From: an uncultured Jannaschia sp.
GTDB lineage: Bacteria > Pseudomonadota > Alphaproteobacteria > Rhodobacterales > Rhodobacteraceae
Length of the DNA: 64,000 bases
NCBI RefSeq assembly: GCF_947503795.1
Contig: NZ_CANNEZ010000003.1
Coordinates: 400,357-464,356, forward strand
Direction: 5' to 3'
Shown here: positions 32,902-41,298 of the stretch, piece after piece
Layout of the letters: each line of letters begins with the position of its first letter
Position numbering within the stretch: the stretch's first letter is position 1
Position numbers and translations under genes: made by a program
The notes under the pieces: generated by a model
Seen by the model: the letters and a program-made list of their open reading frames with translations, nothing else
Told to the model about the DNA's origin: nothing
The model's database searches: none

Positions 32902-32940
32902 CGATTGCGCGGGCGCGCGGCCTGTGGCTTGGTCCGCGCC

Positions 32941-33924
32941 ATGGGGTTCCGCATCGACAACCTGCAGTATTGCAACTGGTCCGAGACCATCTTCCGCCAA
33001 ATGCGGGAGGGCGGTCTGGATGCCGTCCACGTCACCATCGCCTATCACGAGACCTTCCGCGAAACGGTCCTGCGCATCGAGGAGTGGAACCGCCGGTTCG
33101 AGCGCTTCCCCGACCTGATCGTCCAGGCCCGCACCGCCGTCGACATTCGCGCGGCACGCAAGGCGGGGCGCACCGCCATCGTCTTCGGCGCCCAGAACCC
33201 CAGCCCGATCGAGGACGATATCGGCCTCGTGGAGGTGCTGCACACGCTGGGCCTGCGCTTCATGCAGCTGAGCTACAACAACCAGTCCCTCCTCGCGACG
33301 GGCTGCTACGAGGACGAGGATCCGGGCCTGACCCGCATGGGCCGTGCCGTCGTGGCCGAGATGAATCGCGTCGGCATGGTCATCGACATGAGCCATTCCG
33401 CCGACCGCTCGACGCTGGACGCCATCGAGACCTCGACCAGACCCATCGCGATCACCCATGCCAACAACGCCGACTGGCACCCGGCGCGCCGCAATTTCGG
33501 CGAGGACGTGCTGCGCGCCTTGGGCGAGAGCGGCGGGATGCTGGGCCTGTCACTCTATCCGCATCACTTGAAGGATGGGGCGGATTGCACGCTGGCCTCC
33601 TTCTGCGAGATGGCCGCGCGCACCGCCGAGGTGGTGGGGGCGGGCAATCTCGGGATCGGGTCCGATCTTTGCCAGGATCAGCCCGACAGCATCGTCGAAT
33701 GGATGCGGACCGGCCGCTGGACCAAGGCCGTGGACTACGGCGAAGGCAGTGCCGACGCGCCGGGCTTCCCGCCGCAGCCTGACTGGTTCCGCGACAACCG
33801 GGACGTTCCGGGCCTGGCCGAGGGCCTGCGCGCCGCCGGGTTCGACGCGGGCGAGGTCGACGGGATCATGGGCGACAACTGGCTGCGCTTCTACGAGGCG
33901 GGCTTCGGCCCGGCGGGCGCGTGA
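32941..33924 (+). CDS. Peptidase M19 (renal dipeptidase) homologue lacking several metal ligands
   Basis: 327-residue TIM-barrel protein of the M19 family. By eye it keeps H152 (IDMSH), H173 (ITHAN), the RRN motif at 183-185 and D242 (GIGSDL), equivalents of H198, H219, R230 and D288 of renal dipeptidase. The first ligand pair (DGHND) is RIDNLQY here, and the bridging glutamate position (EGG) reads AQN (Q85). Three of five expected metal ligands are therefore missing. No signal peptide, so it is cytoplasmic, unlike secreted dipeptidases. The start 39 bases after rfbA and the GTGA overlap with the next gene place it at the head of a four-gene block. Activity unknown; peptidase, deacylase or lactonase chemistry are all possible. 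Confidence 0.8.
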   Translation: MGFRIDNLQYCNWSETIFRQMREGGLDAVHVTIAYHETFRETVLRIEEWNRRFERFPDLIVQARTAVDIRAARKAGRTAIVFGAQNPSPIEDDIGLVEVLHTLGLRFMQLSYNNQSLLATGCYEDEDPGLTRMGRAVVAEMNRVGMVIDMSHSADRSTLDAIETSTRPIAITHANNADWHPARRNFGEDVLRALGESGGMLGLSLYPHHLKDGADCTLASFCEMAARTAEVVGAGNLGIGSDLCQDQPDSIVEWMRTGRWTKAVDYGEGSADAPGFPPQPDWFRDNRDVPGLAEGLRAAGFDAGEVDGIMGDNWLRFYEAGFGPAGA

Positions 33925-35534
33925 CCGTCGCGCTGCGTCCCCCCGAGGAGGTGATGCGCCTCGACCGGATGGGCTGTTTCCACCAGTCGCGCCTGTCTTT
34001 CATGCGGATGTTGCTGCGCCGTCTGAAGGCCGAAGACTGGACCTTCGACCGCCCCGTCTTCGAGATCGCCGCCGACGGCACCGGGCGCGCCGTCTATTCG
34101 GCGCACGGTCCGGACCGGTCCTATTCGCTCGTGGCCTTCTCCCATGACCTGCCGCCCGAGGCGCGCTCGGACCGGGTGATCGCGACGGCCTGGGACGCGA
34201 CGTTCACGCTGTTCGACGGGGTTCCGGACGCGGAGGATCTGGCGCGGCTCGGGGCGAACGTGCCGCTCCAGGAGGCCGGGCGCATCACCGATCGCGAGCT
34301 GACGTTGAGCCGGGCCAACCGCTCCGTTCGCCTCTTCGATCACGTCGTCGACGCGCTGTCGCGGGGCATCCAGCCAGACCCTGTGCGCATCGACGCCGTG
34401 GGCTACCTGATGCGGACGACCGCCGTCTACGGATCGGGCAAGTTCGGCGCGGCCGATCGTGCGCGCATCGCGGATCGGCCCGAATGCGCGGCGCCGTTCC
34501 AGGTCGAGATGCTGACTGTCTGGCTGATCCGGGCCTTCGTGCTGGACCAGGTCGAAGCGATGGCACAGGCGCGCGCGCCCGACCGCGCCGTCGCGCTGGA
34601 CCCCGAGCTGCGCCGGCGATTCGGGATCGGCAATTCGACCGGCCTCGGAATGGCACCGTTTCTCGTACATCACCCGGTCCTGCTGGACCGCTGGATCACC
34701 GCCCGCGAGACCGCGCTGGCGCGCGTCCTGGAACAGGCGGCGCCACCCGACCGGATCGCCGCGTTCATCGCCGCCCGCGACGCCGCCGCGCGCAACGTCG
34801 CCGCATGGCGTACCGATCATCCGGTGCAGGCCGCCAAGCTCGACGGCCTGCGCGCGGATATGGAGCGGCTGGTCGCGCAGCCGGTGACCGGATGGGCCGC
34901 GCTCTGGGAGTGGGGGCGGACGGCGCTTTCGCTCGAAGGGCAGGAATTGCTCGTCTCGCTTCTCCTGGAACCCTGGCCCGAACTGGTGGACGGCCTCGGC
35001 GCGACGATGTGTGCCGAGGAAGACGCGCGCTTCGCCATCGACGGGCGCATGGCGCTGGACGACCTGCGCGGCGCGCTCTGCGCGGTGCACGGTATCGAGG
35101 GCTGCGACGGGCCGGCACGCGTCTGGTTCACCTCCGCCGACAAGCTGGAGCCGCGGCTGGGCGAGCCGGATCCCGCGCTCGACCCGCACGCGCAACCCTT
35201 GGCGACACGGCGCGATGCGGCGGCGCTGTTGGCCGCGATGGAGGGTCGGACGGGGGACGTCGCGGGCTTTCTGCTCGATCACCCGGAGCACCGGCATACG
35301 GTGCGCCGCGTTCAGATCGCCCTGCGCCATCCCTATGCCGAGATCCGCGACGATCTCGCCTCGACCGCGATGCTGCCCGCCGACATGCTGCGCGCGAAGC
35401 TGTCGTTCTTCGGGGCCGGGCGCTTCGATCCGCGCTCGGACCGCTGGGTGCGGATCGAGATGTTCCGCGGTGCGCCCTTTCCGCACGAGATGGCGGATGC
35501 GGGCGCCGAGCCATGGGCCGGGCTTCCGGCGTGA
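33921..35534 (+). CDS. Conserved hypothetical protein, 537 residues
   Basis: Soluble protein with no signal peptide or membrane segment. I recognise it only as a conserved unknown that travels with DUF3726 and Ldh genes. Conserved-looking pieces: MRLDRMGCFHQSRLSFMR (12-29), SDRVIATAWDATFTLFDG, NVPLQEAGR, LSRANRSVRLFDHVV, GYLMRTTAVYGSGKFG and GNSTGLGMAPFLVHHPVLL. The density of G, H, N and R in these blocks suggests an enzyme rather than a structural protein. Starts at GTG overlapping the M19 stop (GTGA) and ends overlapping the DUF3726 start (GTGA). Confidence 0.72.
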   Translation: MTVALRPPEEVMRLDRMGCFHQSRLSFMRMLLRRLKAEDWTFDRPVFEIAADGTGRAVYSAHGPDRSYSLVAFSHDLPPEARSDRVIATAWDATFTLFDGVPDAEDLARLGANVPLQEAGRITDRELTLSRANRSVRLFDHVVDALSRGIQPDPVRIDAVGYLMRTTAVYGSGKFGAADRARIADRPECAAPFQVEMLTVWLIRAFVLDQVEAMAQARAPDRAVALDPELRRRFGIGNSTGLGMAPFLVHHPVLLDRWITARETALARVLEQAAPPDRIAAFIAARDAAARNVAAWRTDHPVQAAKLDGLRADMERLVAQPVTGWAALWEWGRTALSLEGQELLVSLLLEPWPELVDGLGATMCAEEDARFAIDGRMALDDLRGALCAVHGIEGCDGPARVWFTSADKLEPRLGEPDPALDPHAQPLATRRDAAALLAAMEGRTGDVAGFLLDHPEHRHTVRRVQIALRHPYAEIRDDLASTAMLPADMLRAKLSFFGAGRFDPRSDRWVRIEMFRGAPFPHEMADAGAEPWAGLPA

Positions 35535-36142
35535 ACCTGTCGGGCGGCGAGACCGAAGCGCTGGCCCGGAAGGCTGCGCGGGGCGCGGGGCTGCCCTGGG
35601 GCCTGGCCGAGGAGGCCGGTATGGCGGCGCGCTGGCTGGCCGAGCGGGGTCTGCCGGGCGCCGCGACGCTCGCCGCCCTGCTGACCGAGATCGACGGGGC
35701 CGGACCGCTGCCGCCGGTGCCCGGCGAGACCTGGCGGGCGAAGCACGACCGGCTCTGCCCGATCTGCTGTGGTGCGGCGCTGTCGGACCGGCTGGAGACG
35801 GGGCCGCTGACGGTCTTGGACGTGCTTCATCCGCTTCTCATGCTGCCGCACCTCGCCTCGGTCGCGGATCGTACGGGTCGTCCCGTCACGATCCGGTGGC
35901 CCGGTGGCGGTGCGATCCTGTCGCGGACCCCGAGCCTGCATGGCGCGCCGCCGCCCGCGCGCGGCGATATCCGCATCCTTCCCGCCCGCGCGCCGGGTCC
36001 GTGGCCGCGCGCGCCGCGCACGCCCGAGCCGGTGGCACCCGCGGCGGTCGACATTCTGAATGCATTCGCGCATCGCACCTATGCCCCGGCCCATCTTGGG
36101 CGCGAGGGCGGGGCGGGCGCGGGCCTGACCGACAGCGACTGA
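35531..36142 (+). CDS. DUF3726 family protein
   Basis: 203-residue protein. The N-terminus VNLSGGETEALARKAARGAG followed by LPWGLAEEAGMAARWL fits DUF3726. A cysteine cluster CPICCG (C76, C79, C80) could bind a metal or act as a thiol site. GTG 35531 overlaps the upstream stop by four bases; the same frame is open for another kilobase upstream, but that is the shadow of the 537-residue gene. The C-terminus is proline-rich. Function unknown; context says it works with the M19 homologue, the 537-residue unknown and the Ldh-type dehydrogenase. Confidence 0.72.
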   Translation: MNLSGGETEALARKAARGAGLPWGLAEEAGMAARWLAERGLPGAATLAALLTEIDGAGPLPPVPGETWRAKHDRLCPICCGAALSDRLETGPLTVLDVLHPLLMLPHLASVADRTGRPVTIRWPGGGAILSRTPSLHGAPPPARGDIRILPARAPGPWPRAPRTPEPVAPAAVDILNAFAHRTYAPAHLGREGGAGAGLTDSD

Positions 36143-36153
36143 AAGGCAAGACC

Positions 36154-37158
36154 ATGACCCACCGGATGATGTCCCTGGACGAGATCGAGACGCTGGCCTT
36201 CGACGCGCTGCTCGCGGCGGGCACACGCCCCGAGGCCGCGCGTGCGCTGGCCGTGGCGACCGCGGCCACCGAAGCCGACGGCGTGGCGAGCCACGGTCTG
36301 GCCTATGTGCCGATCTACGCCGAACATGTCCGCTGCGGGAAGGTCGACGGTCAGGCTGTCCCGGAGGTGTCGACCCCCCGACCCGGCGTGGTGCGCGTCG
36401 ATGCCGGGCACGGTTTCGCCCATGGCGCCATCGACGCGGGCATGGGGCCGCTGATCGCGGCGGCGCGCGCAAACGGCGTCGCGGTCATGGCGATCCATCG
36501 GAGCTACAATTGCGGCGTACTCGGCATCCACACGGCGCGGATCGCGGCCGAGGGGATGCTGGGGCTGGGTTTCACCAACGCGCCCGCGTCCATCGCGCCG
36601 GGCGGCGGATCGCGGCCGGTCGTGGGCACCAACCCGATCTCGATGGCCGTGCCGGACGGGGCGGGGGGCGTCGAGATCCTGATCGACCAGTCGGCCAGCG
36701 TCATCGCCAAGTCCGAGATCATGAAGCACGCCCGCGAGGGCCGGGCGATCCCCGAGGGCTGGGGCCTCGATGCCGACGGCGCGCCCACCACGGATCCGGA
36801 CGTGGCCCTGAATGGCTCGATGGCACCTGCGGGCGGCTACAAGGGCGTGGGCCTTGCGCTGATCGTCGAGACGCTGGCCGCGGCCATGACCGGCGCGACG
36901 CTGGGCAAGGATGCCTCGCCCTTCTCGGGCACGGCCGGCGGACCGCCAGCGACGGGCCAGATGTTCATCGCTATCGATCCGGGCGCGACGTCGGGCGGTG
37001 CCTTCGCGGAACGGATCGGCGATCTCGCAGCGGCGATCCGGGGCCAGGACGGCGCACGGCTGCCGGGCGACGGGCGCGGTGCGGCGCGGGCGCGGGCCGG
37101 AGGCGGCGTCGCGGTGGCCGAGGCGACGATCGAGCGCATTGCCGCGTCGATGGCCTAG
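36154..37158 (+). CDS. Ldh-family (malate/L-lactate dehydrogenase type) oxidoreductase
   Basis: NAD(P)H-dependent 2-oxo-acid or cyclic-imine reductase family protein, 334 residues. Family blocks ATEADGVASHGLA (H47), GTNPISMAVP and GGYKGVGLALIVE are clear. Two positions are unusual: the arginine expected after SHGxx is Y51, and the usual NHFG is SYNCG (N119). Homologues include Delta1-piperideine-2-carboxylate reductase, (2R)-3-sulfolactate dehydrogenase and ureidoglycolate dehydrogenase; the sequence does not pick one, and no sulfolactate lyase gene is nearby. It follows DUF3726 after 11 bases. It ends in CTAG shared with the convergent glycosyltransferase. Confidence 0.82.
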   Translation: MTHRMMSLDEIETLAFDALLAAGTRPEAARALAVATAATEADGVASHGLAYVPIYAEHVRCGKVDGQAVPEVSTPRPGVVRVDAGHGFAHGAIDAGMGPLIAAARANGVAVMAIHRSYNCGVLGIHTARIAAEGMLGLGFTNAPASIAPGGGSRPVVGTNPISMAVPDGAGGVEILIDQSASVIAKSEIMKHAREGRAIPEGWGLDADGAPTTDPDVALNGSMAPAGGYKGVGLALIVETLAAAMTGATLGKDASPFSGTAGGPPATGQMFIAIDPGATSGGAFAERIGDLAAAIRGQDGARLPGDGRGAARARAGGGVAVAEATIERIAASMA

Positions 37159-38078: not shown

Positions 38079-39460
38079 CGCCCGCGTGCCAGCGACGCCC
38101 GCGCGTCCGTCCCGGCCGGGAAGCGTGTGAAGGCCGGCCGCGCGCCGGAGCGCCGGATCGGGGCGGCGCGGCGCGGGTCCGCGGGGGCCTCGGCTTCAGG
38201 CGCTTCGGTTCGGGTGATCGGCTGGACGAGCCAGGCCGTCGCGCCGAACACGAAGAAGGTGAATGAGTAGATGTTGGTCCAGACATGGACCGTGAAGAGC
38301 GTGAAGGTCAGGCCGATGATGGTGAAGACGCAGGCCGTGCGGATGCGGCCAAGCTCGGTCCCGGGTCCATGGTCGAGCCGCATGAGCCGCGTCAGCTGCA
38401 CCAGCCAGCCCGCCGCCAGCAGCCCCACGCCGGGCAGGCCGTAGCGCATCCCCGTCAGCAGCCAGAAATTGTCGACCGAATCCGAATGCATCCAGCTCGG
38501 CCGGACCCAGTCCCGAAGGCCGAGGCCGAAGATCGGGTTTGCCCAGATGTTCTCGAGGCCCCAGTCGAGGATCGTCAGGCGCCAGTAGGCCGTGTGCGCC
38601 GAGAAGGTGGCGTAGGTCATGAAGACCTGTAGCCCCGAGCGCGACGACAGAAGGTCGATGGCGATGTAGACCGTGGTCACGAGGCCGAGCAGCAGCCACC
38701 AGCGCCATGCGACCTGCGCGAAGATCGCGGCCCATGCGATCAGCCCGACCTGCAGCGCGATCGCCAGGAGCGCCCCCGAGGAGAGCGCCAGAAAGCCGCA
38801 TCCGGCGACCGCACCTGCCGCGATCCAGCGTCGGAGGTCGCCCATCTGGTCCTTCATCGCGACGAAAACCATCGAGAACACGACCGAGCAGAAGAGCCCG
38901 TAATGGATGGGGTGGGCGAAGACCGCCTGCACCCGCTCGACTCCCAGCCGACGGTTCATGTCGAGGATGTCGACCGACCCGAGGACGGGCAGCTTGCGGA
39001 TCATCGCGATGATCGGCGGCGTACCCGTCCGCGCCTCGATCAGCGCGAAGGGGAGCGTCAGCAGGACGCCCAGCAGAAGGAGGCGGCAGGCGCGAAGCAT
39101 GTCGGCGGAGCTGCGGATGCCCGCGCGCGCGACGACGTAGCCGCCGAGGAACTCGACCCCGACCGACGGTGCCTGCTGGATGACGCGGTCCGGGTTGTTC
39201 ACCCCGAGTGCGACCGCAATCCAGAGCGCGTGCCCGAGGAGCAGCCAGTCGGTCGCCAGCACCGGCCCATATCGACCGCGCAGCGTATTGACCAGAAGCG
39301 GCAGCGTTACCGCGAGCAGGAGCACCCGGAGCGTCGTCAGAAAGAGCGGTCCGACATGGAAGGAGATCGGCACCAGCACGGCGATCAGGTAGATCGGCAC
39401 GAGCCATGCGGGTCCGCGCGTGTCGAGGCTCTCGGCCGGTTGGTCGCGGAGGGCCGTCAT
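38075..39460 (-). CDS. O-antigen ligase/polymerase (Wzy-like) membrane protein
   Basis: 461-residue inner-membrane protein with about ten to twelve hydrophobic segments. A large periplasmic loop holds NPIFGLGLRDWVRPSWMHSD (around residues 315-334), the loop type conserved in WaaL/Wzy polymerases (VDNFWLLTGMRYG follows). ATG 39460 is at the end of the beta-helix gene, sharing one base (TGATG). Likely polymerises lipid-linked repeat units in the periplasm; ligase activity is an alternative. Confidence 0.8.
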   Translation of the reverse strand: MTALRDQPAESLDTRGPAWLVPIYLIAVLVPISFHVGPLFLTTLRVLLLAVTLPLLVNTLRGRYGPVLATDWLLLGHALWIAVALGVNNPDRVIQQAPSVGVEFLGGYVVARAGIRSSADMLRACRLLLLGVLLTLPFALIEARTGTPPIIAMIRKLPVLGSVDILDMNRRLGVERVQAVFAHPIHYGLFCSVVFSMVFVAMKDQMGDLRRWIAAGAVAGCGFLALSSGALLAIALQVGLIAWAAIFAQVAWRWWLLLGLVTTVYIAIDLLSSRSGLQVFMTYATFSAHTAYWRLTILDWGLENIWANPIFGLGLRDWVRPSWMHSDSVDNFWLLTGMRYGLPGVGLLAAGWLVQLTRLMRLDHGPGTELGRIRTACVFTIIGLTFTLFTVHVWTNIYSFTFFVFGATAWLVQPITRTEAPEAEAPADPRRAAPIRRSGARPAFTRFPAGTDARASLARGR

Positions 39461-41298
39461 CACTCGGCGGCGGCGCGGCGCAGGGGCGGGTGCCGGACAT
39501 CGAGCTCGAACGCGTCGACCCAGCCTGCGAAGCTGTCGAACTGGTCGAACGGGTTGCCGAAGGTCAGACCCCAATGCTCCGAAGGCCCGAGACGGCCGGT
39601 CATCGGAACCTCGGCCACGCGCGTGCCGTCGACATTCAGCCAGAGGTGACCCTCCTCGGAATCGTAGGCCAGCTCAAGCTCGGCGCCGCCGTCGCGCGCC
39701 AGCGCCGTGCCGCGCCCCTTGATGCGGGTCGTATAGCCGTCGGCGGTCGTGACGCGCGCCGTGATCGCGCCGCGGTCGCTGACGCGGACTACCAGAAGCT
39801 GGTGTACCCGAAGAACGATGCCCCCGGTGCGCCGCGGACCGAGATCGGGGCGCAGATGCATCCGCATCGAGAATGCATCGGCCCCGAAGAGCGCGGCCGT
39901 CTGATGCTCGGTCAGGCGCGTCGCGGGCAGATCGTCCCCGATCGCGATCGCGGGCTCGTAGATGTCGATCCGGTGGCGCAAGCCCCGGCCGCCATAGACC
40001 TCGATGGCCTGCGCCTCGGGCACGAGGCGGATGGCCCCTTCGGTCGTCGTGGGAAGCCGGCTCGTTGCGGACATCTCGGGCGCCAGCGGCGAGCCGTATT
40101 GCAGAAGCGGGGCGCCGATCGCCACGCCGTCCAGCGGACCACCCGGATAGGGCAGGAAGTCGACCGGACGCGCGGCCCTTCCTTGCGAGACGTCGGCGAA
40201 GACGCTGTCGTAATGGCCGTCCTGCAGCGGTTGGACATCCTGCACGATCAGGTTGCCGAGGATGAGCCAGTCGTCCCGCCATTCGGCCTCGGTGATGGCG
40301 TGGGCCACGTTGTTCACGACGATCACCTCGCGCGATTCCCCGGCGATGTGGATGCGCGGAACCCAGAGGTTGGGGTTCGGGCGGTTGCGGGCCGCGAAGG
40401 CGTTGCGCACGACGGTATTGCGCCGGATCGTCAAGCCCTCTGTCTCGCCGACGGTGATGCCGTGGGTGTGGGCGTTGAGGATGACGTTCTCCTCGATCGT
40501 CACGTCGCGGTAGAACATCTCGGGGCCGGCCTCGTGCTGATCGACCCGCTCGTTGCGCATGAAGATCGACTGGGTCCAGGGCCCGCGCCCGGAATCAAGG
40601 AGGTTGCCGCGGATCACGATCCCCTGGCTGGGCCGGTCGGTGCCCGCCGTCCAGAACTGGATCATGTCGGGATGGGTGCCGCCCGTGCGGCGATCCGAGA
40701 AGTCGCGGATGGTGTTGTCCTCGATCCGCACGTCCTCGACCTCCGCGAAGGTCATCCCATCGAGGCCCAGGCCGTGCAGCAGGTTCTCGGTCAGCGTGAT
40801 CCCGGTGCTGTCGTCGATCAGGGTGCCGGTGCGAAAGCCGGTGATCTCGGACCGGGTCAGGGTGAACCCGTCGGTTTCGGTCACGCGGAGGGCCCGACGG
40901 GTCAGCGCTTCGGGACCGGCGAAGCGCATGTCCTGCATCACGATATCCCGGCTCGCGACGACGCGAAACGGCTCGTCCGGGGCGTCGGCGGCCGGCTGGA
41001 AGTCGAGGTCCGAGAGAACCAGATGCGCCGCATCGCGCAGGACGGCCGTGCCGATGCGAACGGAGCCTTCGGCGGCGCGGATGGTGATGGGCTGGGCCGC
41101 GGTTCCTTGCACGCCGACGATGCGCATCTCGGGATAGGCGCCCGGCGCGAGCATGAGCGTGTCGCCCGGTCGCGCCGCGTCGAGTTGATCGATCAGGGTT
41201 GCAGGCTCGGTTGGCAGCAGGCGTTCGGCCAAGGCGGGACAGGCGCCCCACAGGAGAAGGGCGGCCAGCGCCGCGGCGCGGGATCGAATGCGTGTCAT
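39460..41298 (-). CDS. Exported parallel beta-helix protein with C-terminal LamG-like domain
   Basis: 612-residue exported protein with a signal peptide (cleavage after PALA, residue 24). Residues about 30-330 form a right-handed parallel beta-helix in the style of PL6/chondroitinase-B enzymes: LDAARPGDTLMLAPGAYPE, TAAQPITIRAAEG, then repeated rungs such as VEDVRIEDNTIRDF and NGITV-like THGITVGETEGLTIRRNTV. Residues about 440-605 resemble a concanavalin/LamG sandwich. Likely a periplasmic polysaccharide lyase, epimerase or binding protein acting on the polymer made here. No catalytic residues can be assigned safely. Confidence 0.75.
   Translation of the reverse strand: MTRIRSRAAALAALLLWGACPALAERLLPTEPATLIDQLDAARPGDTLMLAPGAYPEMRIVGVQGTAAQPITIRAAEGSVRIGTAVLRDAAHLVLSDLDFQPAADAPDEPFRVVASRDIVMQDMRFAGPEALTRRALRVTETDGFTLTRSEITGFRTGTLIDDSTGITLTENLLHGLGLDGMTFAEVEDVRIEDNTIRDFSDRRTGGTHPDMIQFWTAGTDRPSQGIVIRGNLLDSGRGPWTQSIFMRNERVDQHEAGPEMFYRDVTIEENVILNAHTHGITVGETEGLTIRRNTVVRNAFAARNRPNPNLWVPRIHIAGESREVIVVNNVAHAITEAEWRDDWLILGNLIVQDVQPLQDGHYDSVFADVSQGRAARPVDFLPYPGGPLDGVAIGAPLLQYGSPLAPEMSATSRLPTTTEGAIRLVPEAQAIEVYGGRGLRHRIDIYEPAIAIGDDLPATRLTEHQTAALFGADAFSMRMHLRPDLGPRRTGGIVLRVHQLLVVRVSDRGAITARVTTADGYTTRIKGRGTALARDGGAELELAYDSEEGHLWLNVDGTRVAEVPMTGRLGPSEHWGLTFGNPFDQFDSFAGWVDAFELDVRHPPLRRAAAE

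Follow-up and report, generated by a model that had tools for sequence, protein, structure and literature searches.

Gene content of the block

A 64-kb stretch of DNA from an uncultured Jannaschia sp. (64,000 nucleotides, the whole of which we call the window) carries at positions 32941 to 37158 a block of four intact genes that all run in the same direction, and it is the function of this block that we analyze here. The first gene (32941 to 33924, plus strand) encodes an M19-like protein of 327 amino acids with an amidohydrolase fold, from a subfamily without the HxD motif (Pfam Peptidase_M19, 247.7 bits, 2e-73); an upstream TTG at 32905 is an alternative start that would give 339 amino acids. 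The second (33921 to 35534, plus strand, GTG start) encodes U537, a 537-amino-acid protein without a Pfam or NCBIfam family and our candidate ring-opening enzyme. It is followed by a DUF3726 protein of 203 amino acids (35531 to 36142, plus strand, GTG start; PF12525 at 60.8 bits against a cut-off of 22.1), the proposed obligate partner of U537, and by an Ldh_2-family oxidoreductase of 334 amino acids (36154 to 37158, plus strand; Pfam Ldh_2, 292.4 bits, 5e-87), a putative N-methylimine reductase. GTGA overlaps join the M19-like gene to U537 and U537 to DUF3726, and a gap of 11 bases separates DUF3726 from Ldh, exactly as a first-pass annotation of the window had described. GC content in 2-kb intervals is slightly higher in the block (0.68 to 0.735) than in its surroundings (0.65 to 0.714), and we take a 531-codon open frame opposite U537 (33891 to 35486, minus strand) as an effect of high GC and not as a gene. 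The block is flanked by rfb-like genes and by glycosyltransferase and O-antigen-ligase genes.

A conserved three-gene core

A pattern scan of GTDB contigs gave 320 relatives of U537, the best 80 of which were fetched with their flanks; a larger set of 153 pooled loci served for counts of DUF3726 and of the genes at the operon end. DUF3726 lies behind U537 in all 80 fetched loci, the M19-like gene lies beside U537 in 74 (three of the other six have less than 1.1 kb of upstream sequence), and the 4-base overlap between U537 and DUF3726 is present in 68 of 79, and the linkage of the block is therefore not due to chance. The first-pass annotation had raised the co-occurrence of all four families as a check; the M19-like gene, U537, and DUF3726 do travel together, whereas Ldh is variable, standing directly downstream in 14 of the 80 loci with one further match (43%) elsewhere. 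The constant core is these three genes.

Genome-wide sampling gives the same pairing. Among 398 genomes sampled across the phylum, U537 occurs in 29 and DUF3726 in 27, all within those 29 and in each case adjacent to U537 (27/27); DUF3726 is found in 0 of 14 control genomes. U537 is also present in 53 of 385 genomes of the class, including genomes of 1.2 to 1.4 Mb, and the small-genome loci (L160 to L163; we number loci L and genomes G) are SAR11-like, with 28 to 36% GC. Our DUF3726 model finds the partner in 142 of the 153 pooled loci; five of the 11 misses are found by Pfam's own model and the other six are divergent sets. In one of the 153, on a Mesorhizobium plasmid, U537 and DUF3726 are fused into a single gene. 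The commonest gene order is LysR, aldehyde dehydrogenase (ALDH), M19, (BCCT), U537, DUF3726, (Ldh), and the 80 fetched loci include ALDH in 61, BCCT in 33, RidA in 11, and a SoxB gene of N-methylglutamate dehydrogenase (Mgd) in 2.

Some genomes (G083, G099, G183, and G319) have two copies of U537. The second copies of G083 and G099 (L254 and L250) belong to another clade, with no ALDH, Ldh, or RidA found nearby, and possibly serve a second substrate. Rhizobial sets (L085, 14223 to 22438; L133, 11196 to 19687) comprise an IclR gene, a U537-like gene, a small gene, an M19 gene, and a spermidine-type ABC importer, with RidA at a greater distance; in L133 the U537-like protein scores 358 bits against profile A1, but the small gene was not recognized as DUF3726.

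Predicted structures of U537 and DUF3726

Searched at E <= 1, the window copy of U537 matched no family in Pfam or NCBIfam; among PDB sequences it matched none at E <= 10 when searched alone and none below E 0.5 when searched by profile. Structures of U537 and DUF3726, whose prediction the first-pass annotation had proposed as a check, gave contrasting results. The U537 model (pLDDT 86, pTM 0.89) has no fold match in PDB or BFVD better than E 0.1, and no match was obtained to any oxygenase family or fold, whether flavin, Rieske, luciferase-like, or of another kind. An alignment of 81 U537 sequences has 122 invariant columns, in which Arg, Asp, Glu, and aromatic residues are frequent, and U537 is thus probably an enzyme; the sequences speak for one of unknown type, with no relative recognized beyond its own family. 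Pfam matches within these 81 members are scattered and weak, the best being an exonuclease domain in four members (E 0.0021), and were set aside. A viral origin was likewise rejected, as U537 relatives were found neither in phage records nor, by pattern scan, in viral contigs.

Of the aligned DUF3726 members, 76 of 76 match PF12525 at E <= 0.1; the literature searched makes no mention of DUF3726. All of the top 26 PDB fold matches of its predicted structure (pLDDT 87) are Ldh_2-family enzymes, with E values that start at 1.1e-3, none being below 0.001; in a profile comparison with the neighboring Ldh the alignment is limited to 41 columns at the N terminus (E 0.0017, probability 15%). With 131 residues fewer than the window Ldh, DUF3726 is also without the SHG motif, and on the predicted structure, in which the Ldh_2 fold appears shortened, we interpret it as a reduced relative of the adjacent Ldh. 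Its C-terminal tail is conserved yet poorly predicted in the single-protein model, as expected if the tail folds on a partner. The reduced Ldh_2-like fold predicted for DUF3726 and the modeled U537 structure without a known fold are new in this analysis.

Altered residues in the M19-like protein and Ldh

The first-pass annotation had pointed out that residues expected to be catalytic are missing from both recognizable enzyme families; these changes are real, and they are shared across the respective subfamilies. The M19-like protein has no N-terminal HxD, and Q85 and Y112 replace a Glu and a His present in dipeptidase 3id7; H152, H173, and D242 are retained. We take the HxD, Glu, and His positions to be the M19 two-metal site. 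The closest solved chain, 2i5g (an "amidohydrolase," 190 bits), carries the same substitutions across the aligned part. By its Pfam score the window protein belongs to the same sequence family as 2i5g and the M19 membrane dipeptidase.

Ldh keeps H47, presumably the His of the SHG motif, and has Y118-N119 where 1wtj has H-H and 1vbi has T-H, N119 occupying what we take to be the site of the second His of S-[TH]-H; the Y118-N119 change is common to the subfamily. Its best solved relative is the delta1-piperideine-2-carboxylate reductase DpkA (1wtj, 204 bits; the next is at 132), and its best NCBIfam model is L-sulfolactate dehydrogenase, at 165 bits far under the cut-off of 500.

Alternative genes at the operon end

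Behind DUF3726, the operon ends with Ldh in some genomes and with RidA in others; within the 80 fetched loci, 10 of the 11 RidA genes occupy this slot. Across the 153 pooled loci we found Ldh in 41 (within 9.5 kb), RidA in 27, both in 0, and neither in 85, and in 61 hand-picked loci from genome searches the counts were 20 for Ldh, 12 for RidA, and 0 for both. This exclusion has a P of 8e-5 if loci are treated as independent, which they are not, with at least 8 changes of state on the U537 tree. The pattern is suggestive of a single imine or enamine intermediate on which both Ldh and RidA act.

Importers and catabolic neighbors

Most importers in the operon are of the BCCT or ProXWV type, with a branched-chain-type ABC set in one Mesorhizobium plasmid. 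Since BCCT, ProXWV, or ABC importers lie in or beside the operon, the substrate is probably imported and zwitterionic. The ALDH of one relative (L019) was tested against family models and scored 484 and 481 bits with those for alpha-ketoglutarate semialdehyde and 2,5-dioxovalerate dehydrogenases and 371 bits with that for betaine aldehyde dehydrogenase, all three under their cut-offs; an ALDH of the 2,5-dioxovalerate type would fit a C5 2-substituted 5-oxo acid. The compact sets L160 and L161 consist of ProXWV-ALDH-M19-U537-DUF3726 with a divergent Ldh, and L161 has an extra gene behind DUF3726, from the conserved hypothetical family PF03601.

Racemase, MttB, Rieske, and DMGDH-like genes lie near the block at L086 (18939 to 21198), L083 (2894 to 7067), and L082 (15493 to 20903), which suggests that some records contain islands of betaine-catabolic genes. 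Genes for capsule synthesis and polysaccharide export are found a few kb downstream in 25 of the 80 loci (e.g., L048, 13349 to 14641; L013, 17569 to 18717; L066, 17829 to 19931), and 22 of these 25 loci are named Roseovarius.

Link to N-methylglutamate dehydrogenase

In five loci (L082, L135, L130, L047, and L067), all from Phaeobacter or Aliiroseovarius, the block lies directly next to SoxBDAG-like genes and to the gene of an AraC-type regulator that carries a DJ-1/PfpI domain; two of these are in the 80 fetched loci and three are plasmid records (of the 58 Phaeobacter plasmid records, 2 were inspected). In a tree of 40 SoxB-like proteins, the five block-linked ones fall within a clade of 15 (support, 94/92) that includes the proteins of L230, beside glutamine synthetase III and a glutamate-synthase-like gene, and of L222 and L233, with trimethylamine N-oxide (TMAO) demethylase and DmmA genes. 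Because of this shared clade we identify the block-linked SoxB as MgdA. An excerpt of PMC13390433 describes dmm, tmaR (AraC-type), and mgdABCD as neighbors in Ruegeria pomeroyi and refers to a 2026 report of the involvement of Mgd in homarine catabolism. Genomes G115, G135, and G205 have MgdA without GmaS; in G115 and G135, which carry Ldh-type blocks (for G115, as read from a plasmid that agrees with it in length and positions), MgdA is at 96% and 89% identity and no GmaS was found at E <= 1e-100, which suggests that Mgd there serves something besides the GmaS/Mgs route.

The small AT-rich genomes G538, G580, and G663 have SoxB-like genes (57 to 61%) about 6 to 11 kb from the block; the protein of G538, the sole one of the three placed in the tree, sits on a long, unsure branch. 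A sister clade of the Mgd/sarcosine-oxidase tetramer is represented at L218 (5287 to 10306) and L225 (9423 to 13957), with a DNA primase gene close by in both, and is present in many of the sampled Rhodobacteraceae, including the window genome.

Proposed pathway

Very probably, the block serves the catabolism of a zwitterionic N-methyl compound. More specifically, it may be the core of an operon that degrades a betaine-like N-methylpyridinium carboxylate, with homarine (N-methylpicolinate) the foremost candidate; this we regard as an even call, and on the substrate itself we lean toward homarine. The first-pass annotation had suspected a small-molecule pathway that might make or remove an unusual amino-acid-derived compound; betaine importers, a semialdehyde dehydrogenase, Ldh or RidA, and mgdABCD in a few genomes fit one coupled pathway, with removal as its probable direction.

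U537 and DUF3726 would together open the homarine ring oxidatively between C5 and C6 to give 2-(N-methylformamido)-5-oxopentenoate. ALDH, adjacent in most relatives and not in the window, would oxidize the aldehyde product to a dicarboxylate, and the M19-like protein would take the formyl group off the N-acyl enamine; dehydropeptidases of the M19 fold cut N-acyl enamine-type bonds. Ldh would then reduce the N-methylimine of 2-oxoglutarate formed in this way to N-methylglutamate, for conversion to glutamate by Mgd, and with RidA in place of Ldh the imine would be hydrolyzed to 2-oxoglutarate and methylamine. If true, the Ldh/RidA swap predicts from the genome whether nitrogen leaves as N-methylglutamate or as methylamine. 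Ring opening would be a two-electron oxidation, because the conversion of homarine to N-methylglutamate and formate nets a two-electron oxidation and the ALDH oxidation and Ldh reduction cancel. Its assignment to U537 and DUF3726, the unassigned members of the compact L160/L161 unit, we hold to be less likely than not; the M19 and Ldh steps as drawn are somewhat more doubtful still. A broader proposal, that U537 (with its predicted new fold) and DUF3726 make up an enzyme of a new type for opening N-methylpyridinium carboxylate rings, with DUF3726 as a nucleotide-binding or gating partner whose flexible tail reaches into U537 and with a module that serves several related betaines by swaps of ALDH, Ldh, RidA, and importer from SAR11-like genomes to rhizobia, is speculative and on balance unlikely to hold in full. 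Should the pair open the homarine ring, an orphan family without a Pfam entry would become an assignable enzyme and a marker for carbon and nitrogen flow.

A homarine catabolic pathway was published in 2026 (Nat Microbiol 11:1531); it reportedly has an operon homABCDER in Rhodobacterales, SAR11, and SAR116 and N-methylglutamate as its product. The first-pass annotation knew of no described pathway with this gene set; this one may be the block's own, and the block is perhaps the published operon, though unproven. The Mgd link in five relatives and the occurrence in both Rhodobacteraceae and small AT-rich genomes are alike, and ALDH, M19, U537, DUF3726, Ldh, and LysR equal the letters of homABCDER in number; the window copy differs in having no adjacent ALDH, regulator, or importer. 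The trigonelline pathway of Acinetobacter (tgn genes) resembles the proposed route in that the ring is cleaved to an N-methylformamido product, the aldehyde is oxidized, and a hydrolysis follows. However, the enzyme that cleaves the ring there is a flavin-dependent luciferase-like monooxygenase, a family matched by neither U537 nor DUF3726. As for homarine in nature, PMC8269247 counts it among the most abundant metabolites in particles at an open-ocean site of the North Pacific, the genes for its synthesis and breakdown being then unknown, and PMC10134881, a later correction of another paper, states that the homarine values given there had been too high.

Several observations weigh against the homarine route. 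Neither U537 nor DUF3726 has a nameable redox motif, which is awkward for an oxidative step, and most of the two-metal site is gone from the M19-like protein. ALDH is absent from 13 of the 69 loci with at least 4.5 kb of upstream sequence, and neither Ldh nor RidA is present in 29 of the 61 hand-picked loci; corrected for kinship by a sign test on independent pairs, the Ldh/RidA exclusion is not significant (median p 0.25). The Mgd link is confined to those two of the 80 fetched loci. In a comparison of 27 family members from the phylum sample, MgdA at 76% identity or above, a line chosen by the analyst, occurs in 7 of the 17 genomes with the block and in 1 of the 10 without it, which is no clear difference; the line itself is unsafe, since G277, a genome without the block, carries a 69% copy about 5 kb from its GmaS. 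A few kb from the L160 block, past a TPR gene on the opposite strand, lie aminomethyltransferase-like, MFS, TauD-family dioxygenase, and racemase-like genes, and because of the dioxygenase a separate oxygenase is possible there. Our estimates for homarine, for ring opening, for the M19 and Ldh steps, and for the explanation as a whole were lowered because of this dioxygenase and the rarity of mgd genes near the block.

Alternative explanations

Some records from Phaeobacter, Mesorhizobium, and Pseudomonas, in which similar cores have Rieske, MttB, DMGDH-like, or racemase genes close by, also count against homarine, since with such neighbors another betaine may be the substrate. Proline betaine, hydroxyproline betaine, or a carnitine-like compound might then be degraded, with U537-DUF3726 as a new demethylase or C-N lyase and Ldh as a pyrroline-carboxylate-type reductase. 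Betaine-type importers in the loci and the nearness of Ldh to delta1-piperideine-2-carboxylate reductase would suit this explanation, which we consider unlikely but well worth keeping in view: such neighbors are sporadic in the 80 loci (mandelate-racemase type in 2, Rieske in 3, DMGDH-like in 6, and MttB in 0). Mgd is equally sporadic, yet it is linked directly and agrees with N-methylglutamate as a product. Somewhat less probable again is a pathway for an unrelated N-methylated or amino-acid-derived compound. The core is also found without ALDH, Ldh, RidA, or Mgd nearby, and the window genome has no close copies of ALDH, importer, or Mgd; yet the U537 group of 54 to which the window copy belongs often has ALDH, and the reduced form may be the result of loss.

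Trigonelline (N-methylnicotinate) could conceivably undergo the same chemistry as homarine, and a distant set of rhizobial genes located on pSymB includes a related U537, an M19 protein, and a succinate-semialdehyde dehydrogenase. We nevertheless hold this substrate to be very improbable, as the tested ALDH (L019) is of the C5 type and the pSymB set alone is insufficient: according to an excerpt of PMC4207669, a Sinorhizobium meliloti strain without pSymA fails to grow on trigonelline. On the same grounds we rejected trigonelline breakdown as the sole pathway of the rhizobial set, and we likewise set aside the S. meliloti hydroxyproline genes, as the annotated neighbors of its U537 match are unlike the hydroxyproline cluster. 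Least probable of all, to the point of being scarcely credible, is that the block modifies the flanking cell-surface polysaccharide, which the first-pass annotation had raised, next to coincidence, as a possible meaning of its position in the window. Capsule genes do lie several kb downstream in the 25 loci described above, but these are nearly all of one genus name, the other 55 have none within the flank covered, and importers and catabolic genes recur beside the block.

The window copy

The homarine route also has to accommodate the window genome itself, which is 99.88% complete. It has no close ALDH (best, 36%), BCCT (33%), or RidA (39%) and no GmaS, and its nearest SoxB proteins, at 64% and 48%, belong to the sister clade and to a sarcosine-oxidase-like protein, respectively; these absences add to the points against that route. 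Its U537 falls in a fork of nine (support, 91) inside the group of 54 (support, 98). ALDH is nearby in 3 of the 8 other members of the fork and is common in the group of 54. The window copy is a shortened variant of the operon and represents either a reduced pathway that relies on different dehydrogenases and transporters or the core put to a related use.

In the window as a whole, no tRNA, tmRNA, or Rfam family reaching its gathering score was found. Downstream of the block, a right-handed beta-helix protein of 612 residues (39460 to 41298, minus strand) is encoded between an O-antigen-ligase-like and a polysaccharide-flippase-like protein.

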